From positions 62,001 to 126,000 of the forward strand of contig DATMBC010000019.1 in assembly GCA_035559435.1 (NCBI GenBank): 64,000 nt of DNA, given 5' to 3'. Positions 21,901 through 42,190 of this stretch are shown in pieces. Both the position numbers and the translations under genes were made by a program. The DNA is from a bacterium. Its GTDB lineage: Bacteria; Zixibacteria; MSB-5A5; WJJR01. Below the pieces are notes generated by a model, which worked only from the letters and a program-made list of their open reading frames with translations, did not search any database and had not been told where the DNA came from. How positions within the stretch are numbered: position 1 is the stretch's first letter; every line of letters begins with the position of its first letter.

Positions 21901-24900
21901 AGCGCCGAGGGCTTCTGGAAGGGCGTGGGCGAGATCGACCTGTATGCCTGCGACGCCGCCGGCGCCAATGTGGGCGAAGTCGAGTACTACTTCTGTGTGG
22001 CCGATTCGATCCCGCCGTGCGCGTTGATCTCCAACCCGGTGGACGGCAAGTGCATCCGCCGTTCGCGCTCGATGCTCGATCCGGTGGAGATCTGCGTGGT
22101 GATCGATCCGATGCAAAACTGTCTCGACCCGGACGAAGTGGTCAAGATTGACTACGAGTGGTCGAAGCAGTGCTGCCAGGGTCTGATCATCGACACGACC
22201 TGGATCGGCACGTGGTACAGCTGCGACGACACGTCCGGCAACGGCGAGAATCTCGTTTGCGACACGGTGTTCGATTACTACGGCCCCGGCCGCGACTCGA
22301 TCACCTGCCGTGACACGACGATCACCCCGGCCTGCTCGACTCTGGTGTGGACGCCGGAGATCGACACCGTGCCGTGCGAAGATCTGTATGTCTGGAACAA
22401 CATCGCCGTCCAGGCGGGTCCGGGCATCCTGCAGCCGAAGGAGGGCGGTCCGAACGGCTTCCTGATGTACGGTTGTGTGGACTGGTGGAACACCGAAGAC
22501 CTGTCCTGGATCACCGAGTCGGGCACGATCATCTATCTGCGCGCCCGTCTCTTTGACGATCAGGGCAACGAATACATCACCCCGTGCGTCCAGGTCTGCG
22601 TCGACATCGACACGCCGCCGCTGTGCCTGGAGACGCCGGACTTCTGCTACAGCGACGGCAAGATGGCGCTGTCGGCCCCGTACCTGGGCATCGAGGAGTA
22701 CCCGGGCAAGGGCCTGATGAACGATCCGTGCATGAAGACCTTCTACGCGGATCTCGACCTGGCGCAGGACAACATCGACGACCTCGATGACGTGTTCCTC
22801 TATTACAAGAAGTCGTCGGATCCGGACCAGTACGACTACTGGTACAACCTCGGTTCGGGCTTGCCGGGTGTGAACTCCAGCCCGGGCGGCACGAATTCGA
22901 CGGTCTGGCGCTGGGACATCAATCTCTGCGAGCTGGAGCTGACGCCGAACGTGGACTACGACTTCCGCGTGATCGCCCGGACGGTTTGGGGCACGTGGTC
23001 GCACGACATGAACGGCGACGGCTGGTTTGACGCCAACACCTTCGATTCGTCGGCGTGCGACATGGCCACCTTCTTCATCGATGCGTGGGCCCCGAACGCG
23101 GCGATCGACACGGTGTGGACGGAGATCAACGGCCAGCTGGTCGTGCAGCCGAACGTCTCGTGCGTGCTGTCCGATCCGCGCGGCTGGGCGTTCACGCAGT
23201 GGGGCAACACCCTGACGGTGCAGCCGAACGTGTGGCCGTGGTTTGACACCGACGGCAACGACACGCGCGACGACGTCAAGCGCGTCGAGTGGACGCTGTT
23301 CACCGGCGAGGCCAACTGCGACTGTGACGAGCAGGGCCGTTCGCCGTATCCGTCCGGTTCGCTGTTCGGCGACGTGTACAATCTCTCCGGCTACCAGTCG
23401 TGGACGGTCCAGGTGAACGAAGGCGCCAACGTCTTCAACAACCTGGTCTTCGACCCGACCGACGCGCCGTGGTATCAGGACATGACCTCGCCGCCGAGCG
23501 GTTACGAGCAGGTGGTTCTGCTCATGACCGTCTGGGACGGTTGCGGCAACATGACGCAGGATTGCATCACGATCTACCTGCTGGACATCGATCCGACGGA
23601 CGCGATCATCGTCGAGCCGGATAACGACGAGGTGTTCTGCACCGCGCCGGGCAACTATGATGAGAACGGCATCTACATCGAAGCGCGTTCGATCCTCGAA
23701 GAGGGTTGGAACAAGGCGGTCTTCGCTTATCGTCCGCTGGGCGCGACGGAGTGGGTCGAGTTCGATTCGGTCGGCGTCTCCGCCGCTCCGGATGTGTACT
23801 GGCAGTGGTTCTCGACCTACTGGAATCCGACGGCCTTCGGCCTGGCGGATGGCACGTATGAACTGACGGTCTGGGCGGTGGACAACGCGCTCAACCGCTC
23901 GGAGAACCTGTACATCACGACCGTGCACCTCTCGTGCGCGCTGCCGACGGTGGCGGTGGTCTACCCGACCACGACCGACCCGGCGTTCATCGGTTGCGAT
24001 ATCGAGTTGGAGGCGGTGGCCGAAAGCACCGATCCGCGCAACCCGATCACGGAGGTCGCGTTCTACTATGTCCGGGTGATCGACGATATTCCGGAGGAGG
24101 AGTACTACATCGGCTCCGACTACGAGAGCATCGACGGTCGCTGGGGCTACAACTGGATCGATCCGGACTTCGAGGGTCCGCACTTCATCTTCGCCCGCGC
24201 GTGGAACAAGTCGGGCCAGATGGTGCAGTCCGACCTGGTCTGGGTCCGCGGTGACGACACCGATCCGTACGGCATCGTGGCCCAGGTGGGCGACGACCTG
24301 TCGAACGGCGGTTACAACGATCCGACGATCGTCCAGGCCGGTTCCGTGGTTGACATCTGGGGTTATGCCCGTGACAACGACGGCGGCTGGGGCCAGGGCG
24401 AAGTCGACAACTGCGGCGTCGATTCGGTCATCTTCTACATTAAAGACGGTTACGAGAAGATGGACGGCTTCGTCATGACGCCGGACAACGTGATCGACTC
24501 CCTCTACACCGGTCAGTGGAACACGGCCAACTACGAGCCGGGCACCTACCGTGTGAAGATGAAGGTCTTCGACTGCGCCTGTAACGACTCGTGGTCGGAG
24601 AGCGAGTGGTACGTGCGCGTCGTCGGCCCGGATCAGGATCCGCAGCTGGCGGTCGACGGTCCGGAAGTCTGCGGCTACGTGAGCGTGGACCAGGAGTTCA
24701 ATGCGACGGTGACGGTTAACAACCCGTCGTATGTCAGCTCGGTCTACCTGGCGTGGATCAGCGCCGACAAGTCGGACGTTGAGGACCAGTACTGGTGGAG
24801 CGGTGAGCTGTCGAATGACGGCGGCGGCTGGACCGGCACGGTGTACACCGACGGATTGGACGAAGGCCTCTATCGCCTGCGCGCCGTGGTGTACTACACC

Positions 24901-27900
24901 GACGGTTCGTCGACGGAGAACGGCTTCGACGACTTCACCTTCGACGAGACGAAGGGCCACCACATGTTCATCCGTGTGGACCATTCGGCCTCGGCGATCA
25001 GCGTGACGCACGAGGGTCCGACGTTCAAGGCGCATGAGGACATCTGCCTGACGACGGACGCGACCGAGGATTGCGACATCGAAGAAGTGCTCTATGGCGT
25101 GGGCGAGGGCGACGATACGTTCGGCGCCAGCGGCCTCGGCGAGTTCTGCTTCGATCCGCTGGATTCCTCGGGCGTGACGTTGAACAACTGCAATTCCTGG
25201 ACCGGCGACGTGGTCGTGACCGCGGTGGACTACTTCGGTCATGTCACGACGCAGTCCCTGACGATCTGGATTCTGGATGTGAACGCCAATCAAGTGGCGA
25301 TCACCAACCCGAGCTGGAGCGCCTACATCACGCCGAACTCGAATGCGATCGAGGCGCGTAAGCTCTCCTCGTCGGGCATCGACTCGGTGCAGTTCTTCGC
25401 GTCGACGTCGCAGACCAACGGCACCCTGCGCTACATCGGGTCGTCGGCGGCTTCGGGCGACGAGTTCTCGACGTCGTGGAACGTGGACAACGTGCCGGAA
25501 GGCCAGTACTGGCTGTTCGGCAAGGCGTTCGACAACGGCGTCGGCGTCGACGGACCGCGCTGCCCGGCCACCGTGGCCAAGGCCTGCTCGCCGTTCGCGC
25601 TGACCGCGCCGAGCCCGAGCTATCAGCGCACGGTCAACGGGACGACGTTCACCTTCGTGGGTGAGCACACCGACCTGTGCGTCGACCGCGCCACCATCAG
25701 CAACTACCAGACCATCGGCCTCGACTCGATCGTGTGGTACTTCCGCAACGCGGATGTGCCGGGCGTCGACATCGAGGACAACCTCGATCCGAACCTCGGC
25801 TGGGTGCGTATCGACGCCGACGTGTACGGATCCCTGTGCGTCGACTGGTTCACCAACTGGTGCGACGTGATTGCCGACTACGATCTCGAGGGCGAGTACG
25901 GCTACGAAGGCAATTGCTGCCCGGATGGCCGCTACACCATCGTCGCGCGGGTCTTTGACAAGGCCGGCAACGAGTGCCACTCGATCCCGATGAACGTGAT
26001 GATCGACGTGACCGATCCGTATTCGGAGATCGTCGACATCGACGGCGACGAGACCTTCGGCACCTGCCACGAAGTCGTGCTTCCGGAAGACGACGTGGTG
26101 AAGCTGACGGCCAACGCCATCGATGACCACTCCTGCGTCGACATGGAGCCGTACAAGGCGTGGAACTCGGGCGCCAAGTACCTCCAGTTCTTCGTCGGCC
26201 GCGATTGCGCGGGCGGCGGCGGCGGGTGCGTGGACATCGTGTTCGTGCAGGACGGTTCGGGTTCGATGGCCGACGAGCAGCAGGCGATCGCGACCAACGC
26301 GCAGTTGTTCACCAGCGCGCTGGGCAACGTGGACTTCCGCCTCGGCGTCCTCGGGTACGACGGCGACTATGAGGTAATCAATCTCGACGGCTCGCGCACC
26401 ACGGCCGCGCCGGGCAACGGCGTGTTCACGACCGACGTCTCCGCCTTCCAGACCATGATCACCGCAGTGGGCGATCAGATGGGCGGCACGGAGAACGGCC
26501 TGACCGCGCTCAACACGGCGCTGACCACCTACCCGTGGCGCTCCAACTGCACGAAGGTCATGATCCTGGTGACTGACGAGGACGCGGACGACTTCGCCGA
26601 CTATGCGTCGTTGTTCCCGCCGATCGTCAATTCGGGCGCGGCGGTGTTCGGTGTGATCAACTTCGCCGACAGCGCGGGCTACTCGAACCTGGGCAGCGCC
26701 ACCGGCGGCCAGCTGTTTGACATCACGGCCAACTGGGGCGCCAACCTCGCCGCGGTCGCTTCGGGCATCAGCGCCCTGGCCGGCGGCGCGGGCAACGACG
26801 TGGGCATCGTCTGGGGCCAGACGGTGACCCTCAACGACGGCCAGGACAACGCCTTCGCGCTGTGGAATCCGACCGGTCTCGAGCCGGGCAGCTACTGCGC
26901 GTGGACCGTGGTCGTTGACAACGTCGGCAACTCGTATGTCTCGGGTTCGCGCGAGATCTGCATCGTCGACCAGACCCCGCCGGTGGCCCACATCACGGGC
27001 TTCGGCAAATCGACCGACGAGCACATGGTTAACAAGTACACCATCTATGGCGCGACGTGGGACACCGACGTCGACTATGTCCAGTTCCAGTATCGTCCGA
27101 CGGGTTCGACGAACGCGACGGATTGGACCGGAATCGGCATCTCGGCGAAGGTGAACGGCGACAGCACCTGCTGGATGACCACGTGGAACCCCTGCGTGCT
27201 CTCCGGCTCGTTCGATCTGCGTGTCGTCCCGACCGACAAGAATGGCAACCAGGACTTCGCCATCCAGCCGATCGCGACGGTCACGATCAACAACTGCAAC
27301 ATCACGCCGTCCGGCGCTTCGACCTCGGCCGCGACGATCTGGTTCGAGGATCGCACCTTCGAGGATCTGGGCCTGGTCCATGTCGATCAGGACAACACCT
27401 CCGACGACTACCACAACCTGATGATGGCCGTCTGGGCGGACCTGAAGGGCAGCCTCGATGTCGAAAAGATCGAGCTGTGGGCGCCGGATCCCGATATCCC
27501 GTCGTGGAAGTCGGGCTCATTCGAGGGCTCGCAGGCGATCAAGATGGGCGGCGAGGGCTGGTTCTGGCAGTCGTACACCGACGCGTCGAACCGCACGCAC
27601 CTGAAGAAGGAAGTCATGACGGTGTGGCGCGTGAAGGCGGCGATCGGCGCCTGCAACAGCACGCATCCGACGCTCGGCGCGAAGGTCTGCATCGAGCCCG
27701 GCGCGCTGTCGGCGGACAACGGCATCGTGGTCTTCCCGGCGCGTGTGCCGACCCTGAACCTGTCGCAGCAGCACTTCCAGGCGTGGCCGGCCTACGAAGG
27801 CACCCGGTTCCCGCTGGTCACGGCGATCCGCCTGACCGATCCGGTCTGGGGCTTCAACGACGGCAAGTACGCGCAGATCACGTTGCGCTATGTGGAGCCG

Positions 27901-29196
27901 GAAGCCTATGACCCGGCCGACCTTGGCGTGGCGTGGTGGGATGAGGATCAGTGGAACACCAACGACGGCCTGATCGCCGCCGGCGAAATCGGCGACGGTT
28001 CGGCGACGTTCCACAGCGACAACCTCTACGGTCTCTACTCGGTGGTCTCGGCGGGCCGCAACTGCAATTCGGGTGCGATCACAGTTGAGAACGCCGGCGC
28101 TGAGTTCCATGTGGGCAACGTGCTCGGGCCGCGTCCGACGATCTACACGCGGGTGCGCTCGAACATCGAGTACAACAACCAGAACCGTGACATCAACGAA
28201 GACGAGATCACGGTTGTCCTGGATGGCAACATCACCGTGTACGCCAACGGTGACAATCCGGACAACGGCTGGTACGACAACGAATGGGACGAGGTCACCG
28301 GCATCCTGACAACGCACTGGGAGTCCGATGCGCCGGCCCTGGCGCCTGGTCCGCACACTCTGATGGTGCAGGCCTTCAACAAGTCAGGGTACTGCAAGTC
28401 GAACACCTACGCGTTCACGGTCGACGCCGCCAAGCCGGATGTTGAGATCACCGGCATGGAGGTCTGCCCGAACCCGACGTTCCACATCAAGATCACCGAT
28501 GCGGGCGCCGGCGTGAACTGGGAGAAGGTCTTCGTCGACGTGTACGACATCACGGGTTCCGAGTTCTCCGAAGTGCCGAAGGCGGCGTGGATCCACACCG
28601 AAACCTTCGACGCGTTCAACGACGAGAACTTCAACCCGGCGACCGGCGAGTTCAGCTTCCAGCTGGTCGATCACATCGCCCAGGGTCGTCGCCTGCGGGC
28701 CATTGTCTACGCGGGTCCGGACTACCGTTGGGAGAAGTTCAACGAGTACTGCAACTGCATCATCTACGAGTACGACTGGGAGTTCGGCGGCGTCGCCGAC
28801 ATGGTCGAGAACTACACGCAGGTGGTGCAGGAAGACTTCACGGTCGCGGGTGGTTGCGACACCGATGGCGACGGCATCATCACCATCGTGGGCGGCGCCG
28901 GCTCGGGTTCGAGCAACCCGTTTGATCCGTGGGCCGGTGGCGCTGTCTCCTTCGCCCTGAACGGGTTCGACGGTGGCGGCGTGGTCACGGCGGAGATCTA
29001 TGACCTGGCCGGCGAGAAGGTCGCGACCATCTTCAATGGTCAGATCACCTCGACGGTGGGCACCGTGACGTGGACCGGCACGAACGACGACGGCGAGTAC
29101 GTGGCCGAGGGCGTGTACCTCGCGTACTTCAAGGCGACCGGAGCGGCCGAACAGGTCCTGAAGGTCGTGGTGAAGCGCGGAGTCGCCAGCAACTAG
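18958..29196 (+). CDS. Giant secreted multidomain protein (Ig-like repeats, vWA domain, C-terminal FlgD-Ig/sorting domain)
   Basis: The product is about 3,412 residues. I chose ATG 18958 because AGGAGGAGGAAGAGGAAAGGAC precedes it; ATG 19036 also has a strong site (AGGAAGGGGGAG) and starts directly at the signal peptide MKPWRWSLWAALIALTLVGL. The body is a long series of Ig-like modules with recurring D-x-x-GN turns and many cysteines. A von Willebrand A domain lies at about 2425-2613, with MIDAS motif DGSGS, Thr in GGTENG and Asp in VTDEDAD. The last 95 residues (from SNPFDPWAGGAVSFAL through IYDLAGEKV to GVYLAYFKATG) form a FlgD-Ig/type IX-like C-terminal domain. The gene after it encodes a PorV-like protein. 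A calcium-dependent surface adhesin or matrix protein is inferred. Confidence 0.85.
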   Translation: MYRNNTNARSSRSGSGANSPQEGGARMKPWRWSLWAALIALTLVGLSAMPAQAAFSDGTTISVSQLQAAPADCNNLVWRTSDVAGGLDSLAYKRRWFNYAGPTSTNVPILSFRIDNGDGTADTLYSMYVHSIAERTNTISQIRLYWDSTVAGMSDTNAFYGGGNDVFVGSANPGAFQTNDSVFINLTRPIIVPGGGTAWFNMVVDINGIGNNPTYDMTGVGVELRPERVCMGAIGCGPAPGDTVDLDCIPQSPANNAYSIIIDNQGPACDSVFLTNYNINNCLYGGCDPSDVINLGDSLLIQVDLDIVNVPNDTCKTGWPKVFVREFTNNAGAVTMARFKGFAGYQYFAYVNEYDSSNIGSAPAVGPFDLMNVGPTVNLPVDIPGGTHWIVAEFQDAYGNTSRCSTLVAEPIDTKKPAVAARPASWTLHWDANGNGIVNPGDTVRFFIDMSNEPFGEVCAVFTTIYDFYAAPVGITLYDDAGDRRFEAKHEVLPGVLDGAAESAWLHVVDNACNEDSLSVTLAASVDNVGPSIPPGEFLRLSDTDLNGCLKIGESVRIRVQGVTDTDLVAIYANVMQAGLGDLNNVAYSQYPLNNLGGGNWQLDWVLGDLPQDSAIDYGPLDPNAIVALYIVDNAQNWDTVYTTVLDAGTGGYSIDTDYPEPVVDLACYSRAFGVIDLEWNWGDQYPNGNNDIALVRIYYDNGTGGDPNILVAEVGATTNWTTDGTVVLTDGVVYKWRVEVIDDCGNVEVEHVLPVACESDASAPITCVYQPEEGQQYSCSYCEFLNNGPQMGGFFIYVKADLPGSDDLTDIDTVLVRLKDQGDGNPGPWTPMSFDYSFQGPSDNLIAVWIYACEQLDAMVGDGDVEDLEIIVIGSDEAGNVMTRNEVIAACGTWEFTWANTDGTFDLQVTEVNGQLEMYQNYCDITGFSVWGPSNTVEVCFSGGLPPYKIRMEVGQEWAAPDNEVVYVENVYAACTTLTFSAEGFWKGVGEIDLYACDAAGANVGEVEYYFCVADSIPPCALISNPVDGKCIRRSRSMLDPVEICVVIDPMQNCLDPDEVVKIDYEWSKQCCQGLIIDTTWIGTWYSCDDTSGNGENLVCDTVFDYYGPGRDSITCRDTTITPACSTLVWTPEIDTVPCEDLYVWNNIAVQAGPGILQPKEGGPNGFLMYGCVDWWNTEDLSWITESGTIIYLRARLFDDQGNEYITPCVQVCVDIDTPPLCLETPDFCYSDGKMALSAPYLGIEEYPGKGLMNDPCMKTFYADLDLAQDNIDDLDDVFLYYKKSSDPDQYDYWYNLGSGLPGVNSSPGGTNSTVWRWDINLCELELTPNVDYDFRVIARTVWGTWSHDMNGDGWFDANTFDSSACDMATFFIDAWAPNAAIDTVWTEINGQLVVQPNVSCVLSDPRGWAFTQWGNTLTVQPNVWPWFDTDGNDTRDDVKRVEWTLFTGEANCDCDEQGRSPYPSGSLFGDVYNLSGYQSWTVQVNEGANVFNNLVFDPTDAPWYQDMTSPPSGYEQVVLLMTVWDGCGNMTQDCITIYLLDIDPTDAIIVEPDNDEVFCTAPGNYDENGIYIEARSILEEGWNKAVFAYRPLGATEWVEFDSVGVSAAPDVYWQWFSTYWNPTAFGLADGTYELTVWAVDNALNRSENLYITTVHLSCALPTVAVVYPTTTDPAFIGCDIELEAVAESTDPRNPITEVAFYYVRVIDDIPEEEYYIGSDYESIDGRWGYNWIDPDFEGPHFIFARAWNKSGQMVQSDLVWVRGDDTDPYGIVAQVGDDLSNGGYNDPTIVQAGSVVDIWGYARDNDGGWGQGEVDNCGVDSVIFYIKDGYEKMDGFVMTPDNVIDSLYTGQWNTANYEPGTYRVKMKVFDCACNDSWSESEWYVRVVGPDQDPQLAVDGPEVCGYVSVDQEFNATVTVNNPSYVSSVYLAWISADKSDVEDQYWWSGELSNDGGGWTGTVYTDGLDEGLYRLRAVVYYTDGSSTENGFDDFTFDETKGHHMFIRVDHSASAISVTHEGPTFKAHEDICLTTDATEDCDIEEVLYGVGEGDDTFGASGLGEFCFDPLDSSGVTLNNCNSWTGDVVVTAVDYFGHVTTQSLTIWILDVNANQVAITNPSWSAYITPNSNAIEARKLSSSGIDSVQFFASTSQTNGTLRYIGSSAASGDEFSTSWNVDNVPEGQYWLFGKAFDNGVGVDGPRCPATVAKACSPFALTAPSPSYQRTVNGTTFTFVGEHTDLCVDRATISNYQTIGLDSIVWYFRNADVPGVDIEDNLDPNLGWVRIDADVYGSLCVDWFTNWCDVIADYDLEGEYGYEGNCCPDGRYTIVARVFDKAGNECHSIPMNVMIDVTDPYSEIVDIDGDETFGTCHEVVLPEDDVVKLTANAIDDHSCVDMEPYKAWNSGAKYLQFFVGRDCAGGGGGCVDIVFVQDGSGSMADEQQAIATNAQLFTSALGNVDFRLGVLGYDGDYEVINLDGSRTTAAPGNGVFTTDVSAFQTMITAVGDQMGGTENGLTALNTALTTYPWRSNCTKVMILVTDEDADDFADYASLFPPIVNSGAAVFGVINFADSAGYSNLGSATGGQLFDITANWGANLAAVASGISALAGGAGNDVGIVWGQTVTLNDGQDNAFALWNPTGLEPGSYCAWTVVVDNVGNSYVSGSREICIVDQTPPVAHITGFGKSTDEHMVNKYTIYGATWDTDVDYVQFQYRPTGSTNATDWTGIGISAKVNGDSTCWMTTWNPCVLSGSFDLRVVPTDKNGNQDFAIQPIATVTINNCNITPSGASTSAATIWFEDRTFEDLGLVHVDQDNTSDDYHNLMMAVWADLKGSLDVEKIELWAPDPDIPSWKSGSFEGSQAIKMGGEGWFWQSYTDASNRTHLKKEVMTVWRVKAAIGACNSTHPTLGAKVCIEPGALSADNGIVVFPARVPTLNLSQQHFQAWPAYEGTRFPLVTAIRLTDPVWGFNDGKYAQITLRYVEPEAYDPADLGVAWWDEDQWNTNDGLIAAGEIGDGSATFHSDNLYGLYSVVSAGRNCNSGAITVENAGAEFHVGNVLGPRPTIYTRVRSNIEYNNQNRDINEDEITVVLDGNITVYANGDNPDNGWYDNEWDEVTGILTTHWESDAPALAPGPHTLMVQAFNKSGYCKSNTYAFTVDAAKPDVEITGMEVCPNPTFHIKITDAGAGVNWEKVFVDVYDITGSEFSEVPKAAWIHTETFDAFNDENFNPATGEFSFQLVDHIAQGRRLRAIVYAGPDYRWEKFNEYCNCIIYEYDWEFGGVADMVENYTQVVQEDFTVAGGCDTDGDGIITIVGGAGSGSSNPFDPWAGGAVSFALNGFDGGGVVTAEIYDLAGEKVATIFNGQITSTVGTVTWTGTNDDGEYVAEGVYLAYFKATGAAEQVLKVVVKRGVASN

Positions 29197-29211
29197 TCAC
29201 TAATCAGTAGC

Positions 29212-29243
29212 GGTTCGCCCCGCCCTCGCAGGCGGGGCGAACC
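29212..29243 (+). terminator. Hairpin between the giant gene and the PorV-like gene
   Basis: A perfect 13-bp stem (GGTTCGCCCCGCC / GGCGGGGCGAACC) with a 6-nt loop follows the giant gene by 15 bases. No T-run follows, so it could reduce read-through or stabilise the upstream mRNA rather than end transcription. Confidence 0.6.
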
Positions 29244-29294
29244 CTCAACCGATAACGAGGACAAAAACTTCGTATGTCAAAGGGAGAAGGAACA

Positions 29295-30185
29295 ATGAAC
29301 CACACGTGGGGCAAACGGTGGGCGATGGTCCTCGGCGCGGCGCTGATTCTCGTGACGGGACTTTCGGCCAACGCGCTGGCGATCGACGACAACCATGCGC
29401 TGCCGTTCTTGCGGACAGGCGTGGGCGCCCGCGCGTACGGTTTGGGCAACGCCTACACGGCGTTGGCCGGCGACGCGTCGGCCGGGTTCTTCAACCCGGC
29501 GGGACTTTCACGCATCAACAAGTGGAGCTTTTCCTCCATGCTGTCGGCGGACATGTTTGCCGATCGCAACTTCAACTACCTCGCGCTGGCCGGCTCGTTT
29601 AAGTGGGGCTCGGTGGGCGCGTCGTGGATTAACGCCGGCATCACCGATGTCGAGCTGACCAATGGCTCGACCGAGGATTACATGGACAACTACTTCCTGT
29701 TGTCCTATGCCAACTGCGCCAAGGCGTTCCACTGGGGCATGAACCTGGTGATCGCCAACAACAAGGTCTCGGAAGAGACCGGCGTGGGCGGCGATGTGGG
29801 CTTCCAGATCGACCTGCATGACGACGCGCGTCTGGGCCTGATGGCGCAGTCGCTCGGCCTGAAGGTCGGCGAGGACAAGGTGCCGTACAACATCCGCCTC
29901 GGCCTGGCCGTCACTCCGGGCCAGCTTTCGGGTTTCACCTTCCCGGTGGAAATCCAGAAGACGCAGGGTGTGGACGAGATCGCCTTCCGCATCGGCGGCG
30001 AGTACATGCACAAGTTTGAGAACACCGACTACGCGGCCGCTCTGCGCGGCGGCGTGGACGACGGTGCGTTCGCCATCGGCGCCGGGCTGTATTTCCGTCA
30101 GTTCGGCTTCGACTACGCCTATGTGACCGACAAGGAAGACTTCATGGGCGAGAACCACCGTTTCAGCCTGACCGGCAACTTCTAA
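29295..30185 (+). CDS. PorV/PorQ-like outer-membrane protein (UPF0164 family)
   Basis: The 296-residue product starts at ATG 29295 (GGGAGAAGGAACA upstream); an earlier in-frame ATG at 29274 is less well placed. After a signal peptide ending in ANALA, the region FLRTGVGARAYGLGNAYTALAGDASAGFFNPAGL is the hallmark of the PorV/UPF0164 family of FadL-like beta-barrels, which in type IX secretion receive cargo proteins at the outer membrane. The rest is alternating beta-strand sequence ending in a barrel-like NHRFSLTGNF. Its position right behind a giant secreted protein with a C-terminal sorting-like domain suggests a cargo-receptor pair. The functional link is an inference. Confidence 0.82.
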   Translation: MNHTWGKRWAMVLGAALILVTGLSANALAIDDNHALPFLRTGVGARAYGLGNAYTALAGDASAGFFNPAGLSRINKWSFSSMLSADMFADRNFNYLALAGSFKWGSVGASWINAGITDVELTNGSTEDYMDNYFLLSYANCAKAFHWGMNLVIANNKVSEETGVGGDVGFQIDLHDDARLGLMAQSLGLKVGEDKVPYNIRLGLAVTPGQLSGFTFPVEIQKTQGVDEIAFRIGGEYMHKFENTDYAAALRGGVDDGAFAIGAGLYFRQFGFDYAYVTDKEDFMGENHRFSLTGNF

Positions 30186-30210
30186 GCCGCAGATCGACAC
30201 GCACTTCGAG

Positions 30211-30246
30211 CCGCCCCGCACTTGCCCGTGCGGGGCGGTTTATTTT
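30211..30246 (+). terminator. Rho-independent terminator after the PorV-like gene
   Basis: A perfect 11-bp stem (CCGCCCCGCAC / GTGCGGGGCGG) with a 6-nt loop at 30211-30238 is followed by TTTATTTT. Confidence 0.92.
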
Positions 30247-30339
30247 CCGGCCGAGGCCCCGGCTCCCCCGGAGGCCGGCGGTAGCGCATGCATGGGGCGA
30301 AGCGAAGTGGTATATTTTCGCCGAATGGGAGGAACGCCG

Positions 30340-31782
30340 ATGTCGATAGCGGTCGGAGACACAGTGGAGCAGAAAAGCCGGGGGGCGGTCGATGAACTGG
30401 CCTGGCTGCGCCAGCAACTGATCGGTGTGGACGCCAAGGTGCCGATCCTGGGCGGACGCATGGTAACCTATGTGAACTTCGACAACGCCGCTTCGACGCC
30501 GACCTTCCGGCCAATCGCCGACAAGGTCGACCAATTCCTCACCTGGTATTCGAACGTGCATCGCGGCAACGGATTCAAGTCACAGTTGTCGTCGTGGGTG
30601 TTCGAAGAGGCGCGGGCGCGGATCATGGAGTTCGTCAAAGCGGATCTGGCTTCGCACATCGTGATCTTCACCAAGAACACGACCGAGGCGATCAACAAAC
30701 TCTCCAACCGCATCCGCTTCGGTCCGCAGGACATCGTGCTCACCTCGCTCATGGAGCATCACTCCAACGAGCTGCCCTGGCGGAAGGTGGCGCGGGTGGA
30801 GCACATCGGGCTGGAGGCGGATGGGCGGCTCTCGCTTGAGGATTTCGAGACGAAGCTCAAGCAATTCGGGCGGCGGGTGCGTCTGGTGGCGATCACCGGG
30901 GCGTCGAATGTGTCGGGCTACATCAACGACACATCGTACTTCGCGCGACGGGCGCATGAGAGCGGCGCCGAGATCCTCGTCGACGCCGCGCAATTGGCGC
31001 CGCATCGTCCGTTGGCGATGGGCACGGCCCATGATCCGGCACACATCGACTACCTGGTCTTCTCGGCGCACAAGATGTACGCGCCGTACGGCGTCGGCAT
31101 CCTGGTTGGGCGACGCCCCACCTTCGAGCAGGGGGAGCCGGATGTGGTCGGCGGCGGCACGGTCGACATCGTGAATCTGGAAGAGGCCTACTGGACCGAC
31201 CTGCCCGAAAAAGAAGAGGCAGGGACGCCGGACATCGTCGGGGTGGTGGCGCTGGCGACGGCGATCCAGTTGCTGCACTCGGTGGGATGGGATGCGGTGA
31301 TCGCGCACGAGGCGGAGTTGACGGCCTACGCGTTGCGCAAACTGGCGGAGATCCCGAAGGTGCGCATCTATGGCGATGCCGACCCGGCCAACGCCGCGCG
31401 GCGGTTGGGTGTGTTGTCGTTTTCGGTCGACGGCGTGCCGCACAGTCTGGTGGCGGCGGTGCTCAACTACGAGCACGGGATCGGCGTGCGGTCGGGATGC
31501 TTCTGCGCGCACACCTATGTGAAGTGTCTCCTCAATGTTCCGGATGAGGAGGCGCGTCAGATGGAACGGGAGATTCTCGCCCGGGACCGCAGCCGTCTGC
31601 CGGGCACGGTGCGCGCCAGCTTCGGCATCTACAACAATTTCGCCGAAGTCGACCGGCTGGCGGCGGCTCTGGCGGACATCGCCGCGGGACGTATCCAGGG
31701 CGACTATGTGCTGAATGCGGAGAAGGGCGAATACACGCCGCGGGGGTACGCGCCGGAGTTCGGGAAGTATTTCAGTCTCTAG
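30340..31782 (+). CDS. Class V aminotransferase / cysteine-desulfurase-like PLP enzyme
   Basis: The 480-residue product starts at ATG 30340 (GGGAGGAACG upstream). It is a fold-type I PLP enzyme of the aminotransferase class V group. Visible features are NFDNAASTPTFRP at the substrate entry, VIFTKNTTEAINKLS for the PLP phosphate region, ILVDAAQLAPHRP with the Asp that contacts the pyridine nitrogen, the PLP lysine in SAHKMYAPYG near residue 245, and RSGCFCAH near residue 384 where cysteine desulfurases have the persulfide cysteine. It is longer than SufS/IscS (about 400) with an extended C-terminus. No suf/isc genes are nearby, so sulfur transfer is possible but not proven. Confidence 0.82.
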   Translation: MSIAVGDTVEQKSRGAVDELAWLRQQLIGVDAKVPILGGRMVTYVNFDNAASTPTFRPIADKVDQFLTWYSNVHRGNGFKSQLSSWVFEEARARIMEFVKADLASHIVIFTKNTTEAINKLSNRIRFGPQDIVLTSLMEHHSNELPWRKVARVEHIGLEADGRLSLEDFETKLKQFGRRVRLVAITGASNVSGYINDTSYFARRAHESGAEILVDAAQLAPHRPLAMGTAHDPAHIDYLVFSAHKMYAPYGVGILVGRRPTFEQGEPDVVGGGTVDIVNLEEAYWTDLPEKEEAGTPDIVGVVALATAIQLLHSVGWDAVIAHEAELTAYALRKLAEIPKVRIYGDADPANAARRLGVLSFSVDGVPHSLVAAVLNYEHGIGVRSGCFCAHTYVKCLLNVPDEEARQMEREILARDRSRLPGTVRASFGIYNNFAEVDRLAAALADIAAGRIQGDYVLNAEKGEYTPRGYAPEFGKYFSL

Positions 31783-34557: not shown

Positions 34558-37500
34558 ATGGGACCGCGATTGCCCTGGAGCAGGGAGTCAACCACGTTCT
34601 TGGTTGCGAGCGCCGTCGTTGTATTCTCGGTCGCCACAGCAGTGAATCGGGGTGGCGCGGCAGAGGATCCGCTCCCCAGCCCCCTATATGGAACGGCGTT
34701 GAACGGAGTGATTGAGAGTTTCGCCACGGCGCCGGAGGGAAGCGACGCCATCCAGATGGCGCGCCGTCGCAATTCCTCCACAGAATCCGCCGTGGTGCGT
34801 GGCACCGGGACGCTGTCTCTGCGTCCTCGGTTACCGGACGACGCGACTGTCTCATACCCTGCGCGCAGCGCTTTCGGTGCGCCCCAGGAATATGATTGTT
34901 ACGATGCTTTCGGGATCATCAGGTTTTCCCTGGATCCCAGCGATCAGTTTTGCCAGATGCCCCCTCCGCAGACGGACTTCGCTCAGGTTTTTGGCCCGAC
35001 GATTGTGCGTCGCGATGCTGGTCCCTATTCCGACGGACAGATCATCCAGACGGAGATTGTCGCCATGGAATTGACCGGCAACACCGGCGCCAATGGTCCG
35101 GTGATTTTCCGTCAGAGCCCGGCCCAACCCTCGCTGGGCGGCGTTGTCAATGTGGTCACCGACGGGAGCGGAAACCTGGTCTCCGGCGATTCTTTCTTCG
35201 ACATCGTCTTCGAGATCGAGTTCCCGATGCTGGGATTAACTGCGATTCCGGCAAGCCCGGTCCACATCAGGACATCGGTTGACAGCATGCCCCCGCGGCC
35301 GGGGACGACGCACCAGAGCCAGCCGGGGGCGTCAACGCCCTTGCTTAATAAGAACACCGGGAACCAGATCGGTTGGAGTTGCGCGACGACCCACTCAGTT
35401 AACACTTATACAAACTGTCAGAGGGTGTGTGTTTACGAGTTGACCTGCATCTCCGGTCATCCCAGCGATGTCGCGGGGCTTGGTCTGGCGGTTGGCGACC
35501 GTCGCCGCACCAATGACATGTGCGTGAACACGTGTCCGGACATCAAGACGCAATTGACGGCGGACAGCGGCACGGTGTGTATGTGGTGGCATTTTGTGGA
35601 GTGCGCGCCGAGCAACCTCCCCGTGGTTCCGGGAACCATCGTGAGCGACTGCCCGTGCGACAAGTACTGCGTCTACACCGTTCAGTGCATCTCCGGGCAT
35701 CCGGACGACATCGCCGCCTTGGGCATTCCTCCGGGAAAGCGATTCAAGCAGGGGACGTGCGTCAACACCTGTCCCGAACTGAAGTCGATCGTTCCCGGTC
35801 GGCATGGCCCGGTCTGCATTCACTGGAAGTTGGAAGGGTGTCTGCCGGAGTCGGGGAATCCGGACGTGATCGGACGTCTGGTGTTTGAATGCGCCTGCAC
35901 GCCCACCATGAACAGTGTGCCGAGTTGCGCCGGTTACTCGTCATGCCCGACATCGCCGTCGTGTCCGAATTATATCAGTTGCTACAACACTCCCACGTTC
36001 TGCATGGCATCCTGTCCGTGGTATGCCACCTGCGAACGGTACCCATCCTGTCCGGGCAATCCGAGTTGTCCGAACTATCCCAGTTGCGAGACCTATCCAT
36101 CCTGTCCATACTACCCGAGTTGCTACTCCACGCCGACCTGCGAGGGCGCGGTCACCTGCACCGGTGCGCCGCCGGCTTTTGACTCCTCATATTACCCGGC
36201 AGTCTTCTCGGTGGACGGGCCGATCAACCCGGCGGAAGGGCTGCGGCAACCGGATGTTCCGGGTGGACACCCGGCTCCTAATGATGTCTTCGCCTTGGGC
36301 TTTGCCGGACCGTGGGCTTACTTCACGGAAGGTGAGATCTTCGAGTCCAAGCCGCCGGGTCCCGGAGTCCCGCCGGCGATGACGAACATCGACCGCATCT
36401 CGGCATCACTGGGAGTCGGGGTGGCTCCCGGCGGCCCGCCCTACACCGGGCCATTTGCCCCGAATCCGGGCGCGCCCGATCCGGCGCCGTCTTCGGCCAC
36501 GCTCGGGATGGGCACGCTGGGCTTGGTCTCAACGGACAATATCGACGCACTATCGTTTGGCCGTGACGGAGGTAACGTGCTGCTGTTCAGCGTCGATCCC
36601 GAGGCGATTGGCACTGCGGGCACGGCCGTTTACGCCCAGTCAACGATGTCGCCGGCCGCCCCGCCAGTGGGAACGCCCCCGCCCAGCAATGGCGGCGGCG
36701 ATCCCGGCAGTGAAGCCGCCGGCGACATCTACCGCTCGCCGCAGTACACATGGTTTGGCGGACCGGCCAACGTGGTCCTCTTGCCGGCTCCATCAGGGAA
36801 CAACACGCTTGATCTCGATGAAGCGCAAGTCGGGTTGCAGGCGCCGGCGCACACCTACAACGCCCTGCCCGATTCGATCGAGGACGACCTCGACGCGCTG
36901 GAAGCGACCGATGCCTTAAGTGTCGACAGCGATGCGGACGGGCTGGTGGAGAATCCGGATTCGGCGATCTACTTCTCGCTGACGCTTTCGTCGCCGAGCG
37001 TCTTCACGTCGGCCGTCGTTTCCGAGGACGATATTCTCGTCTCGCCTGCCCCTGGCGGCGGAGCATTCACATTTGGCGTCTATGCCGATGGCGTCTCCGA
37101 CCTCGGGCTTCTGGACGGTGACAACATAGATGGGATCGCGGTATGGGATGTCGTGCCGCGCGGAGTCTGGAGCGCCGATGACGAGATCCTGTTCAGTCTG
37201 TCCGCTGGGTCACCGTCACTTGATGCCGCCGCCAACCCGAACATGCCGGGACCGGGGCCGTTTGCGCCCGGGGATGTCTTCAGAAAAGGTTTCGCTCCGT
37301 CGCCCGGGCCGATCGCGATGTACGCGACGGCCGCGAGTCTCGGGCTTTTGGGGACGGACGAACTGGACGCGTTGGACATCGGGCGTTGCGACTGCCGCTG
37401 GGATTCGGATGAGTCCGGGCAGGGCGATGTCTGCGAGCCCGGGTTCACGGATGTCGGGGCCGGGGTGACGGTGACGCTCGCCCCGTGTGTTGTGATCACA

Positions 37501-38142
37501 TTCGACTCGGTGTCCCTCTGGGGGGTCAGTGCGGTGACCATCTCGGCGACCGGACCGGCCGGTCCGTCCGGTTATTCCATCCTGCCGCTTTGTGCTCCGG
37601 CATCGGTCGGTGCACGCGCGAGCTCGACCCAAGGCGGCTACGCTGAGGTGACCACGAGCGCCGACTATGTCGTTGATCCCGGCCCGCCCAATATTGAAGT
37701 CTGCATCGCAGTTGAAACAACCGTTGTCAGCGGTCCCGCTCAGAACCTGAAGATGTTCCATTATGAGGAAGTCTCGCCGGGAAACTTCCAGTGGGTGGAC
37801 ATTACCACTGCGGTGACCACGGCCGGCAGCGCCTTCCAGGTGTGCGGGGCAGTTTCGGCCCTCTCGACCTTCATTGTCGCCGAGCCCGTGCTATGCGCGT
37901 GCAACTGCCACGCCGATCCGGTCTGCGACGGTGTGATCAACAACATCCAGGATGTTGTGGTGGCGGTGAACGTCGCCTTCCGCGGCGCGCCGGCGGTGCC
38001 CGATCCGAATCCGAGCTGTCCGTATGAGACGACGGATGTCAATTGCGACGGCGTCACCAGCGTCCTGGATGTCGTCAAGATCGTCAACGTGGCCTTCCGC
38101 GGATCGACACCGGCGACGGAGTACTGCGATCCGTGTCCGTAG
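34558..38142 (+). CDS. Secreted Cys-hexad-repeat protein A with C-terminal dockerin
   Basis: The 1,194-residue product starts at ATG 34558 (GCGGAGGTGA upstream). After a signal peptide comes EDPLPSPLYGTALNG, shared with the next gene. Residues about 288-446 hold two copies of a Cys-rich module (CISGHPSDVAGLG / CISGHPDDIAALG, each followed by CVNTCP). Residues 455-534 form an array of about fifteen cysteines, mostly spaced six apart (CPNYPSCETYPSCPYYPSC). A large beta-rich middle follows, then a sandwich domain (about 960-1110), then a dockerin (about 1113-1194; DVNCDGVTSVLD calcium loop). Extracellular by signal peptide. I do not recognise the array as a named family; function unknown. Confidence 0.82.
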   Translation: MGPRLPWSRESTTFLVASAVVVFSVATAVNRGGAAEDPLPSPLYGTALNGVIESFATAPEGSDAIQMARRRNSSTESAVVRGTGTLSLRPRLPDDATVSYPARSAFGAPQEYDCYDAFGIIRFSLDPSDQFCQMPPPQTDFAQVFGPTIVRRDAGPYSDGQIIQTEIVAMELTGNTGANGPVIFRQSPAQPSLGGVVNVVTDGSGNLVSGDSFFDIVFEIEFPMLGLTAIPASPVHIRTSVDSMPPRPGTTHQSQPGASTPLLNKNTGNQIGWSCATTHSVNTYTNCQRVCVYELTCISGHPSDVAGLGLAVGDRRRTNDMCVNTCPDIKTQLTADSGTVCMWWHFVECAPSNLPVVPGTIVSDCPCDKYCVYTVQCISGHPDDIAALGIPPGKRFKQGTCVNTCPELKSIVPGRHGPVCIHWKLEGCLPESGNPDVIGRLVFECACTPTMNSVPSCAGYSSCPTSPSCPNYISCYNTPTFCMASCPWYATCERYPSCPGNPSCPNYPSCETYPSCPYYPSCYSTPTCEGAVTCTGAPPAFDSSYYPAVFSVDGPINPAEGLRQPDVPGGHPAPNDVFALGFAGPWAYFTEGEIFESKPPGPGVPPAMTNIDRISASLGVGVAPGGPPYTGPFAPNPGAPDPAPSSATLGMGTLGLVSTDNIDALSFGRDGGNVLLFSVDPEAIGTAGTAVYAQSTMSPAAPPVGTPPPSNGGGDPGSEAAGDIYRSPQYTWFGGPANVVLLPAPSGNNTLDLDEAQVGLQAPAHTYNALPDSIEDDLDALEATDALSVDSDADGLVENPDSAIYFSLTLSSPSVFTSAVVSEDDILVSPAPGGGAFTFGVYADGVSDLGLLDGDNIDGIAVWDVVPRGVWSADDEILFSLSAGSPSLDAAANPNMPGPGPFAPGDVFRKGFAPSPGPIAMYATAASLGLLGTDELDALDIGRCDCRWDSDESGQGDVCEPGFTDVGAGVTVTLAPCVVITFDSVSLWGVSAVTISATGPAGPSGYSILPLCAPASVGARASSTQGGYAEVTTSADYVVDPGPPNIEVCIAVETTVVSGPAQNLKMFHYEEVSPGNFQWVDITTAVTTAGSAFQVCGAVSALSTFIVAEPVLCACNCHADPVCDGVINNIQDVVVAVNVAFRGAPAVPDPNPSCPYETTDVNCDGVTSVLDVVKIVNVAFRGSTPATEYCDPCP
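37894..38141 (+). repeat. Dockerin-coding repeat, copy 1
   Basis: These 248 bases match 41543-41790 with only two differences that I can see by direct comparison (T/C in the Tyr/His codon, A/G in the Thr/Ala codon), although the upstream coding sequences are strongly diverged. This indicates recent duplication or gene conversion of the dockerin cassette. Confidence 0.9.
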
Positions 38143-38430: not shown

Positions 38431-38554
38431 AGATCAGGTGGATTCCATCCGGATTCCACTTCAGCGATTTCGACACAACACGCAGGTCTGGGCGGGAGCA
38501 GTCCCGGCCGACAGAACTGGCGCAGGGAGTGGCCTTTTGAGTCGGGAGGTGGCC

Positions 38555-41500
38555 ATGTTGCCGGTATTGTGTAGATGGACACGGTCCAGATTTGTTGTTG
38601 TCTGGATCGCGGCGCTGGGGGTGGCATGGATGTCGCACGCCGCGTTGGCGGGAACAGCCGACCCATTGCCGTCTCCGCTCTATCAGCATTCCCTCAAGAC
38701 CTCCATCGAGAAATTCGACGGCGCCAGCGCACAGGCGACGGCGCCGAAGATCTCACGCGAGCGGGCTTATGCCGCTCAGGCGGGCGGCGGCGGAACAGGA
38801 CGCCTCGCCGGTGTCGCGGCGGCCGTCGACGACTGCTGGTTGTCGCAGTCGGTCTGGGTTCTGTCGCTGGATCCCTCGCCAAATGGATGTGAGTCTGGAG
38901 AGGCGATCACGCTGTTGACCGCCGATCCGACATTTCCGGACATCGTGCGCCGCCAGGCGCCGCCGTACCTGCCGTCGCCGAACCCGCCCGACATTCCCAT
39001 TGAGATGATCCAGATGGAACTGCGCGGCAACGGCTCCATGGGGCCCGTTCTTGTACGCTTGAGTCCGTCGATACCATCCACCGGACGGATCACCAATGTC
39101 ACGAGCGATCCGGGCGGCAACTTCCAGTCGGGAACAGTTCAGTTGGATGTCACGATTGAAATTGAAATCGTGGCCTTAAGCCTCGTTTCGGTCAACCCGA
39201 TTCCGGTGCGACTGGAAGGGGCGATCACCACACTGCCGCCGATTGGCTCGACCTGGTCGACGCCGCCCAGTTTCCCGCCGGTGCCGTTGCACGACATCAA
39301 CAACGGCACACAGATTGGCTGGATTTGCGCGTTGCCGGGGTACACACCAGCCACTCCTCAGGAATGCCCGCCGGAGGAGCAACCAACGATGGTCGGGACG
39401 GCATCGTGCCATGGCACATCGACCTGCCCGGGGTCGTTCACCTGTCTGAACGCGACCTGCGCGGCGGCACAGACCTGCCGGTCGATGACCTGCACCGCCG
39501 AGCCGACCTGTGCCGGCTCGGAGGCGACCTGCTCGCCGAATCCAACTTGCCCGACGTATCCGTCGTGCGCCGAGACGCCGACCTGCCTCACTGAAACTTG
39601 CGTGGGTTACAGCACCTGCCGCGGCTCGACCACGTGTCAGAGCACCTACACCTGCGACCAGATTCCCTCGTACAACCCGACGCCCAGTTGCGCGCCGTAC
39701 CCGTGCAATACGATGGTGGCGGGCCCGACCTGCCATGGCGCTTCGACCTGTCCGGGTTACTACACCTGCGTGGATGCCAGTTGCGCGGCGTTCCAGACCT
39801 GCCGCAACCCGACTTGCACCTCGGAGCCGACCTGCGGTCCGCGGTCATCGACCTGTTCGTACAGTGTGACCTGTCCGGAGTATCCGTCGTGCAACGGCAC
39901 GGCGACCTGCGGGGCAACGAACAACACCTGCATTGGTTCGCCGACCTGTCGTGGGACATCGACCTGCGCAGGGGTGCCGACCTGCGAGCCGCCGGCGCCG
40001 ACCATCGCGCCGTATGTCACCTGCGGCGACAATTTCGTCACCTGTCAGGGTGTCGTCACTTGCGACCGCTCGGTCTCGTGCGCGGGCAATCCGAGTTGCG
40101 ATGGCGGCTACACTTGTCAGGGGACCGCGACGTGCGATGGCACGTCCTCGTGCGATGGGACGCTCACCTGCCACAATCAGGCGACCTGCCATTTTTCCTG
40201 CGAAGGACACCAGTGCGGTTACCCGACGATGCAGGGATACTACTCCTGCGACGGCGCCGCCTGCCCGACCTACATCTCGTCGGTCAGTTGCGCGAGCGGT
40301 TGGCTCTGCCCGACCTTCAGCGGCTACAACACCTGTCCGGTGGGCGCGTGTGTGACGATGGATGGCACGATCAGTTGCGAAGGGGGAGGCGCGTGCATCA
40401 CGTGGTCTAATTACTACACCTGCCACATGATCCCGTGCGATCCGCCGCCGCCGCCGACCTATCAATCGTATGAAACCTGCCGTCCCGCGCAGTGCGTCAC
40501 CTGGCTGGGGACGCCATCGTGTCCGGGGGATGCCAGTTGCATCCCGACGTCGCCGCCGATGGCCAGTTGTGGCGGGTTGCCGACCTGCGCGGCGGTAATC
40601 TGTGTTCCGACGATCCCGGGCAACCCGACCTGTGCCGGTGTGGCCTCGTGCGCGCCGAATCCGTCATGCAACGCCTTCGGCACCTGCGCCGGGTTTGCGA
40701 CCTGCGCGCCGGCGGGGACCTGCGGCGCGAACACCTGCCCGAACTTTAACACCTGCGCCGGCTTTGCCAGTTGCGCCGGCACCGTGACCTGTCAGGGCGG
40801 GCACACCTGCGCGCCGAATGTGACTTGCGCAGGGAGTATTACTTGCACGCATTCGAACACCTGCACGGGCGCGGCAACCTGCGACATTTCTCCCACCTGT
40901 GGAGGGTGGCCGACTTGCGCGGGCGGACCGACCTGCGGTTTTGCCATTCCGACCTGCGGGCCGTTTGCCACCTGCGCCGCCGAGCAGACCTGTCCGGGCG
41001 CGCCGACCTGCGAGCAACAGGCAACCTGCAATGGTTCGCCGACATGCGCGTTGTCGTTCACCTGCGATGGCTGGCCGACCTGTCAGCCGCCGCCGTATGA
41101 GATACCGTGTGAACTGAAGCTCTGTCTCGACAGTCTGCGCCTCGGCTGGATCACCAATTCGATTCCGCCCGACTCGACCCAGGCGTTCGAATGGCATGAC
41201 TGGCACGGCGGACCGATTCATCCGTTCCTGATCTGGGATGAAACGACGCCGAAGATTCCGGGCATCTTCGTGATCACCGAGTGGATCGCGCCGCCGCCGC
41301 AGGCGGGCATCGTCGACACTGAGTATGTCCGCTTCCCGTACTGGGTCGACTCGCTGCGCGCGCAGGATAACGACGGCGATGGCCAGGTGTCGGTCGGCGA
41401 TCATCTGCTGCTGCAATTTGCCAACCCGGCGCCGATTGTCGGGCAGACCGCCTGGTTCCGGGTGGCGGAGATCGGCAAGAGCCGTCCGCAGGACAAGAAG

Positions 41501-41791
41501 TACATCCTGAAGATGAAGTGCGACCGCCCGCTGGCGATGGCGTGCGCGTGCAACTGCCACGCCGATCCGGTCTGCGACGGTGTGATCAACAACATCCAGG
41601 ATGTTGTGGTGGCGGTGAACGTCGCCTTCCGCGGCGCGCCGGCGGTGCCCGATCCGAATCCGAGCTGTCCGCATGAGACGACGGATGTCAATTGCGACGG
41701 CGTCACCAGCGTCCTGGATGTCGTCAAGATCGTCAACGTGGCCTTCCGCGGATCGACACCGGCGGCGGAGTACTGCGATCCGTGTCCGTAA
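38555..41791 (+). CDS. Secreted Cys-hexad-repeat protein B with C-terminal dockerin
   Basis: The 1,078-residue product starts at ATG 38555 (GGGAGGTGG upstream); an open extension to 38438 lacks a site and a signal. The signal peptide ends near AALAG and is followed by ADPLPSPLYQHSLKT, matching protein A. A beta-type region runs to about residue 275. Residues 283-852 are an almost unbroken array with about 90 cysteines, mostly as [TS]C-x4 hexads (TCAGFASCAGTVTCQGGHTC). A short domain (about 856-990) with an EF-like loop DNDGDGQVSVGD follows, then a dockerin almost identical to that of protein A. The spacing suggests a disulfide-ladder solenoid; the biological role is unknown. Confidence 0.83.
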   Translation: MLPVLCRWTRSRFVVVWIAALGVAWMSHAALAGTADPLPSPLYQHSLKTSIEKFDGASAQATAPKISRERAYAAQAGGGGTGRLAGVAAAVDDCWLSQSVWVLSLDPSPNGCESGEAITLLTADPTFPDIVRRQAPPYLPSPNPPDIPIEMIQMELRGNGSMGPVLVRLSPSIPSTGRITNVTSDPGGNFQSGTVQLDVTIEIEIVALSLVSVNPIPVRLEGAITTLPPIGSTWSTPPSFPPVPLHDINNGTQIGWICALPGYTPATPQECPPEEQPTMVGTASCHGTSTCPGSFTCLNATCAAAQTCRSMTCTAEPTCAGSEATCSPNPTCPTYPSCAETPTCLTETCVGYSTCRGSTTCQSTYTCDQIPSYNPTPSCAPYPCNTMVAGPTCHGASTCPGYYTCVDASCAAFQTCRNPTCTSEPTCGPRSSTCSYSVTCPEYPSCNGTATCGATNNTCIGSPTCRGTSTCAGVPTCEPPAPTIAPYVTCGDNFVTCQGVVTCDRSVSCAGNPSCDGGYTCQGTATCDGTSSCDGTLTCHNQATCHFSCEGHQCGYPTMQGYYSCDGAACPTYISSVSCASGWLCPTFSGYNTCPVGACVTMDGTISCEGGGACITWSNYYTCHMIPCDPPPPPTYQSYETCRPAQCVTWLGTPSCPGDASCIPTSPPMASCGGLPTCAAVICVPTIPGNPTCAGVASCAPNPSCNAFGTCAGFATCAPAGTCGANTCPNFNTCAGFASCAGTVTCQGGHTCAPNVTCAGSITCTHSNTCTGAATCDISPTCGGWPTCAGGPTCGFAIPTCGPFATCAAEQTCPGAPTCEQQATCNGSPTCALSFTCDGWPTCQPPPYEIPCELKLCLDSLRLGWITNSIPPDSTQAFEWHDWHGGPIHPFLIWDETTPKIPGIFVITEWIAPPPQAGIVDTEYVRFPYWVDSLRAQDNDGDGQVSVGDHLLLQFANPAPIVGQTAWFRVAEIGKSRPQDKKYILKMKCDRPLAMACACNCHADPVCDGVINNIQDVVVAVNVAFRGAPAVPDPNPSCPHETTDVNCDGVTSVLDVVKIVNVAFRGSTPAAEYCDPCP
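39401..41110 (+). repeat. In-frame hexapeptide-coding array (Cys every six residues)
   Basis: The array is built on an 18-base periodicity encoding [Thr/Ser]-Cys-x4, with occasional 5- or 7-residue units and a few longer interruptions (around 39660-39730 and 40200-40500). Gly, Ala, Pro and Asn dominate the x positions. The middle part is less regular than the two ends. Confidence 0.85.
41543..41790 (+). repeat. Dockerin-coding repeat, copy 2
   Basis: Second copy of the near-identical 248-base dockerin cassette described at 37894-38141. The similarity begins inside codons for the CACNC motif and ends at the stop codons, which differ (TAG in copy 1, TAA here). Confidence 0.9.
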
Positions 41792-41848: not shown

Positions 41849-41863
41849 GTGGATGGCGGCGGG

Positions 41864-42190
41864 GTGTGCCCTCACCCGGTTCGCCTGCGGCGAACCGACC
41901 TCTCCCGGAGGGAGAGGTGAACGAGCGCTCTTGGGGGCGATGGGGTTTGGATGGGTGAATTCGGCGGATAGAGGGGGATTGCGTGGGAAGGTGTGCCCTT
42001 ACCCGGTTCGCCTACGGCGAACCGAGCTCTCCCGGAGGGAGAGGTGAACGAGCGCTCTTGGGGCGATGGGGTTTGGATGGGTGAATTCGACGGATAGATC
42101 GGATTGCGGGGTGGGTGCCCTTACCCGGTTCATCTGCGGCGAACCGACCTCTCCTGGAGGGAGAGGTGAACAGACATCATTGGTGGCGAT
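41864..42190. repeat. Tandem intergenic repeat, about 2.6 copies of a 122-127 bp unit
   Basis: Units begin near 41864, 41991 and 42114. Each contains two hairpins: GGTTCGCC-TGC-GGCGAACC and ACCTCTCCC-GGA-GGGAGAGGT (small changes per copy), followed in the first two by a shared GAACGAGCGCTCTTGGGG and GATGGGGTTTGGATGGGTGA. The third copy is truncated. A separate hairpin, CGTCCCGTC-GAA-GACGGGACG, lies at 42302-42322. No gene is seen in 41849-42373. Confidence 0.85.

Follow-up and report, generated by a model that had tools for sequence, protein, structure and literature searches.

We have analysed a window of 64,000 nucleotides of DNA from a bacterium of the phylum Zixibacteria, in which two genes on the forward strand code for Cys-rich proteins that are called here A and B. 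Their main features, in positions of the window, are the following.

34558..38142 (+): protein A, 1194 aa, a further and weaker member of the family, carrying a tag, Cys-rich modules, a short array and a C-terminal module
34666..34722 (+): N-terminal tag of A, DPLPSPLYGTALNGVIESF (tag-profile match, E=1.2e-9)
35923..36159 (+): short Cys array of A, residues 456-534, 14 Cys in CPxYPSC-type hexads
38555..41791 (+): protein B, 1078 aa, in the order signal peptide, N-terminal tag, N-terminal domain, Cys array, C-terminal domains
38660..38716 (+): N-terminal tag of B, residues 36-54, DPLPSPLYQHSLKTSIEKF (tag-profile match, E=2.7e-13)
39404..41083 (+): Cys array of B, residues 284-843, 87 Cys
40724..40939 (+): the longest part of B that is fully regular, 12 Cys with period 6, [TS]-C-x-G-x-x
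41543..41788 (+): C-terminal module of B, Cys-containing and, by its sequence, dockerin-like, with two D-x-N-x-D-G-type repeats

The open reading frame of B starts with the ATG at 38555, the GTG at 38438 being an alternative start. Residues 146-259 of B (window 38990-39331) gave a match to DUF6073 just under the cut-off (24.8 vs 25 bits), and an imperfect 127-bp tandem repeat of 2.6 copies is located immediately 3' of the gene (41851-42171). Protein A contains, at 35428-35890, two copies of a Cys-rich module of ~70 aa (C-[IV]-Y-x-[LV]-x-C ... C-x-x-W ... C). The module is met again in many array proteins, such as L279, L280, L286, L332, L333 and L334, and looks like a domain without prior description. 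Upstream of A and B, the region 18775-31782 holds the genes for a 3473-aa VWA/Ig-like protein with a FlgD-like C-terminus, for an unassigned 303-aa protein and for a class-V aminotransferase (cysteine desulfurase-like); the same three genes also precede the orthologue of B in G001 (L274), a genome of the same genus.

A sequence-only reading of this DNA had reported in B about 90 Cys within residues 283-852, one every six residues and most of them preceded by Thr or Ser. The array is real, although its exact figures are 87 Cys and residues 284-843, and both regularities hold. Actually, 55 of the 86 successive Cys pairs are spaced by exactly 6, far above the values obtained with 5,000 shuffles (mean 5.8, maximum 17), and Thr or Ser precedes 78 of the 87 Cys, the frequency of these two residues in the array being 0.25. 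The middle of the array (~565-705) is non-hexad, with short (5-6) and long (9-14) spacings in alternation, and the irregular segments of B allow A, P, Q, L and I before Cys. Since TRF gave only one short match inside the array (18 bp, 2.8 copies), it is not the product of a recent tandem duplication of DNA.

We have compared B with its orthologues in G001 and in G004, which belongs to another genus. In the three-way alignment Cys was identical at 156 of 174 positions and, as the remaining 18 were all gaps, no Cys had been substituted. Identity was 68% for the Thr/Ser before Cys and 71% for the Gly at C+2, the other positions reaching 32-37%, with about 34% where no constraint is seen. In a separate pairwise alignment of B with the G001 orthologue, 77 of the 78 aligned array Cys were Cys in both, and 31 of these 77 had switched between TGC and TGT while the residue was kept, indicating that selection acts on the residue and not on the DNA. 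Judging from these alignments the Cys lattice is maintained by selection, given the conservation of Cys across three genera together with the codon switches.

A and B are members of a family of secreted surface proteins that is common to two phyla, Zixibacteria and Bacillota, and has no existing annotation. The layout consists of a signal peptide, a tag (DPxPSPLFxxSLxxSIxxF), optional domains, an array of [Thr/Ser]-Cys-x-Gly-x-x hexads and an anchor. A third member is found in the same genome as the window (contig C95, 1099 residues) and is almost entirely array. Among 98 related genomes arrays are present in nine, all from one order. Over 1,501 regular Zixibacterial hexads the consensus was [TS]-C-x-G-x-x, with Thr/Ser before Cys in 1493 (99.5%) and Gly at C+2 in 1078. 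In G006:C9, the largest array gene (L284 5669-12213) seems to be frame-split into open frames of 1497 and 711 aa, both with arrays. We have also carried out a genome-wide scan for the pattern TGY-N12-ACN, where four of the matches listed (L044, L091, L061 and L151) were judged real and low-complexity DNA made up most of the inspected ones, again among the matches listed; in viral contigs the scan gave low-complexity matches and no convincing family member.

Searches of the array against Pfam and NCBIfam retrieved no known family, in agreement with the first reading, and the zinc-knuckle or EGF-like alternative named there was looked for and gave no match. Weak array matches were obtained to DUF7640 (PF24646) in L009 4628-7927 (E=0.0055) and L151 6996-8000 (E=3.9e-4), but both are below the curated cut-off and protein B has no match; among the control genomes, a weak DUF7640 match appeared in Haloferax volcanii. 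In the open literature we found no description of the family or of the repeat. Newness, judged from Pfam, NCBIfam and the open literature, is claimed for the system as assembled here, a claim that the subscription literature or UniProt could lower.

The anchors were of different kinds in the two phyla. Zixibacterial proteins end in a dockerin-like module or a type IX-like tail and those of Bacillota in SLH domains, which were detected by Pfam in L061 and L151 (PF00395, E=2e-20 and 2e-16, two stretches apiece). The dockerin-like module is nearly identical between A and B; neither protein matched the Pfam dockerin, and the dockerin likeness of the Zixibacterial C-termini comes from repeats recognised by eye and a weak PDB match for L009 (E=2.3). 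In place of the dockerin-like module, the array protein of G008 (L291 6383-8980) has at its end what looks like a typical sorting tail of type IX secretion.

The tag, aligned over 24 members, lies directly after the signal peptide and is common to nearly all members of the family; the profile derived for it contains no Cys. On the 98 related genomes this profile found the same nine array genomes at E<=5e-5, with no match below 0.01 in the remaining 89. The tag was also present in the two Bacillota proteins found through the array pattern (L061 and L151/L293). In a blind test on 392 genomes of one Bacillota order, the tag profile found G421 and G418, besides G099, and the proteins found in this way in G421 and G418 both have TC hexad arrays and SLH-like C-termini. 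A fourth match, a 42-residue frame in G516 (E=9e-4), was treated as noise.

Besides, the array genes are adjoined in both phyla by the genes of two membrane proteins, P1 (~700-790 aa) and P2 (~780-860 aa), each with about ten hydrophobic segments and two soluble parts. The pair is divergent from the array gene in G001, G002 and G005 and lies downstream on the same strand in G418; for G421 and G098, whose contigs then end, at least P1 lies downstream, and in G099 P2 and the array gene are on different contigs. The window's own genome has P2 at G000:C63:56807-59305. Zixibacterial and Bacillota proteins align with E=9e-93 for P2 and E=1e-54 for P1, and P2 has 118 invariant residues across eight genomes of the two phyla. 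The P2 profile gave a single match per genome in all nine array genomes and no match in 89 class relatives; as these nine genomes are one clade, their co-occurrence does not amount to many independent events and may go back to one event that was then inherited. The Bacillota set is an independent replicate, P2 being found in two of the 392 genomes of one order, G099 and G418, both of them array genomes.

P1 and P2 carry DUF4350/GIFT-type domains, with DUF4350 above the Pfam gathering score in six proteins (36 to 68 bits vs 30.4), and match IFT52 structures. The GldG/DUF4350/GIFT-domain membrane proteins include relatives of IFT52 and OST48 and the archaeal arCOG01314, for which a secretion or membrane-remodelling complex has been predicted (PMC5898192). 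P1 and P2 are like GIFT-domain membrane proteins in these matches, but in them these domains are joined to large multi-pass membrane parts for which no relatives were recognised, and the pair goes with tagged Cys arrays. No Pfam or NCBIfam model names the pair as such. Two other identities were considered and rejected: GldG of gliding ABC transporters (TIGR03521, 12.9 bits vs a cut-off of 389.85) and, for the membrane part, exosortase, an idea reached by eye (no Pfam or NCBIfam match at E<=10).

In eight of the nine Zixibacterial array genomes P2 is followed by P3, a small membrane-anchored CcmH-like protein with conserved Cys. It has in common with the CcmH/NrfF cytochrome c maturation proteins the membrane anchor and the CcmH-like Cys region, but it adjoins P1/P2 and is not in a recognised ccm operon, and most copies are below the PF03918 cut-off (of six, one above the gathering score, best E=3e-6, four below and one without match). 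In G005 and G006 the gene appears as two tandem copies (L357 5807-6566 and L358 3177-3936).

The tag and the partner genes, not visible to the first reading, are the stronger finding. Our overall reading, to which we give about even odds (a probability of roughly 0.5), is that the A/B family are tagged surface proteins that P1/P2, together with P3 in most Zixibacteria, would mature into stacks of disulfide-bridged coils. The main rival, which we consider unlikely, is that the array is mainly a substrate for modification, P1/P2 acting (e.g., by glycosylation) on the Thr/Ser before each Cys to produce a densely decorated stalk. The presence of Thr/Ser before nearly every Cys of the regular hexads is tighter than one would expect at a surface position if shape were the only constraint, the membrane pair is dedicated to the arrays, and P1 weakly matches OST48_N (E=2e-4, below cut-off), the GIFT-type domains of P1/P2 being weakly like OST48, a part of oligosaccharyltransferase. 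However, no glycosyltransferase or other catalytic domain was recognised in P1 or P2 with Pfam and NCBIfam, the irregular segments of B tolerate several other residues before Cys, and packing alone may explain a Thr before an inward Cys.

As for the fold, structure prediction had been expected to give a regular solenoid and neither of two AlphaFold runs did so. The two runs, on 72 and 161 residues and with shallow alignments, gave pLDDT 37 and 31.5 and no confident fold. Because the alignments were shallow this low confidence is uninformative, and not evidence of disorder; the very long rigid rod proposed in the first reading is hypothetical. Models of low confidence and hexads that are rich in small residues and contain Pro would also be found if the array lacked a regular fold and was cross-linked by disulfides into an extended network, as keratin-associated proteins are. 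This we regard as rather improbable, as the spacing is strict across genera, the Cys are invariant, Gly and Thr are preferred, and AlphaFold is unreliable on repeat alignments as shallow as these.

The Cys of our preferred coil stacks are probably disulfide-bonded, as suggested by their extracellular location and, indirectly, by the even number of Cys in 18 of 24 complete mature proteins (one-sided binomial ~0.011, one broken frame left out). B goes counter to the trend within its array, where the number is odd (87), with 102 in the mature protein. DsbB and VKOR are the usual generators of disulfides. Neither was detected in the nine array genomes, which disfavours disulfides, and the likeness of P3 to CcmH counts against a disulfide-making reading, since the CcmH family is known for disulfide reduction and not formation. 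The same two observations, the second suggesting thiol handling or reduction, would fit Cys that stay wholly or partly reduced, in an array working as a metal binder or a surface thiol store, and so would the very high number of Cys, as many as 230 over an open frame of 1497 residues. We find this reading improbable: the even-Cys bias speaks against it, oxidation is the more favoured state outside the cell, the arrays examined had no metal-resistance genes noticed beside them and, to our knowledge, C-x5-C is no classical metal-binding motif.

Regarding the geometry of the coil, the spacing patterns make two Cys per coil appear the most likely arrangement. In the array of the window, long spacings come back at every second step (lag 2, z 4.6) and not at every third (lag 3, z -1.0), which is indirect support, and two Bacillota arrays show a 12-residue alternation; the regular Zixibacterial hexads are without it (identity at lag 2, z=-5.6). 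The lag also bears on another geometry, a left-handed hexapeptide beta-helix with three hexads per coil, as in LpxA/LpxD, and the Cys facing outward. The period of six is common to LpxA, LpxD and GlmU, and the Bacillota array L151, made of [V/I/A]-G-x-x-[ST] hexads, gives weak matches to models and structures of these proteins. However, the [LIV]-[GAED]-x2-[STAV]-x repeat, partly present in the Bacillota arrays, is absent in Zixibacteria, where P, A, D or S mostly occupy the position that should be aliphatic (C+1) over the 1,501 hexads. With this position lost in the window's phylum, no LpxA/LpxD/GlmU match in the window array, no Cys lattice in the known family and an alternation at lag 2 instead of lag 3, the hexapeptide helix is distinctly improbable.

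The Cys period and the Thr/Ser before Cys, on which the first reading based its Tenebrio-type arrangement, are supported. The best PDB match of the array profile was the Tenebrio antifreeze protein 1EZG (E=1e-5 and 2e-5), but control rows in which all non-Cys residues had been shuffled scored better than the real profile (E=5e-7), so that the likeness is one of Cys spacing only. The beetle antifreeze proteins (Tenebrio, Dendroides and Dorcus; 1EZG) have the repeat TCTxSxNCxxAx (PMC8038014). The arrays are like them in the Cys every 6, the Thr before every second Cys, the small repeats and the proposed disulfide-bridged coil; unlike them, they have no TCT and no fixed inward Ser/Ala, have Gly at C+2, and belong to bacterial, surface-anchored proteins that are five to tenfold longer. 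In the 1,501 hexads C+3 is T/S/A/G in ~59%, with Q, F, Y, M and E common, and such bulky residues would fit the Tenebrio core poorly. That the TCT face is not conserved had been said from the start and is confirmed by the Thr at C+1 in just 67 of the 1,501 Zixibacterial hexads; with a 1EZG match due to spacing only, and with anchors and a P1/P2 pair that indicate a surface protein, the chance of an ice-binding protein of the beetle type is close to negligible in spite of the identical Cys period and of 1EZG being the best match. As a whole, the interpretation of the sequence-only reading is partly supported.

Returning to the tagged proteins matured into disulfide-bridged coils, we infer the following sequence of events. 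The array protein would be exported by Sec, and the tag, now at the mature N-terminus, would be recognised at the membrane by the dedicated P1/P2 pair, assisted in most Zixibacteria by the CcmH-like P3 through thiol handling. This complex would maintain the array's proper thiol state or would modify the array. Oxidation of the array would follow and give stacked coils bridged by disulfides, two Cys in each coil being the likeliest number. The end product may be a protease-resistant stalk or coat at the cell surface.

The tagged arrays and the membrane pair that, in both phyla and throughout the genomes searched, accompanies them look like a new bacterial surface-assembly system. In its widest form, advanced tentatively and at somewhat less than even odds, this would be an envelope system of Zixibacteria and Bacillota in which the tag hands Thr-Cys hexad proteins to the GIFT-domain pair, with the CcmH-like protein, for export and oxidative or covalent maturation into disulfide-laddered fibres without DsbB or VKOR; that the combination of tag, Thr-Cys hexad proteins and GIFT-domain pair has not been described before is put forward with the same reserve. 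A Cys lattice of secreted bacterial proteins is now linked to a tag and a membrane pair in two distant phyla and, with the tag, the substrate and the putative machinery all named, the system is open to testing. A very long, genetically encoded and disulfide-stapled solenoid, if true, would be of interest to protein engineers. If the arrays are disulfide ladders, these genomes, where neither DsbB nor VKOR turned up, must rely on another oxidant, and the disulfides may then be formed by a new route.
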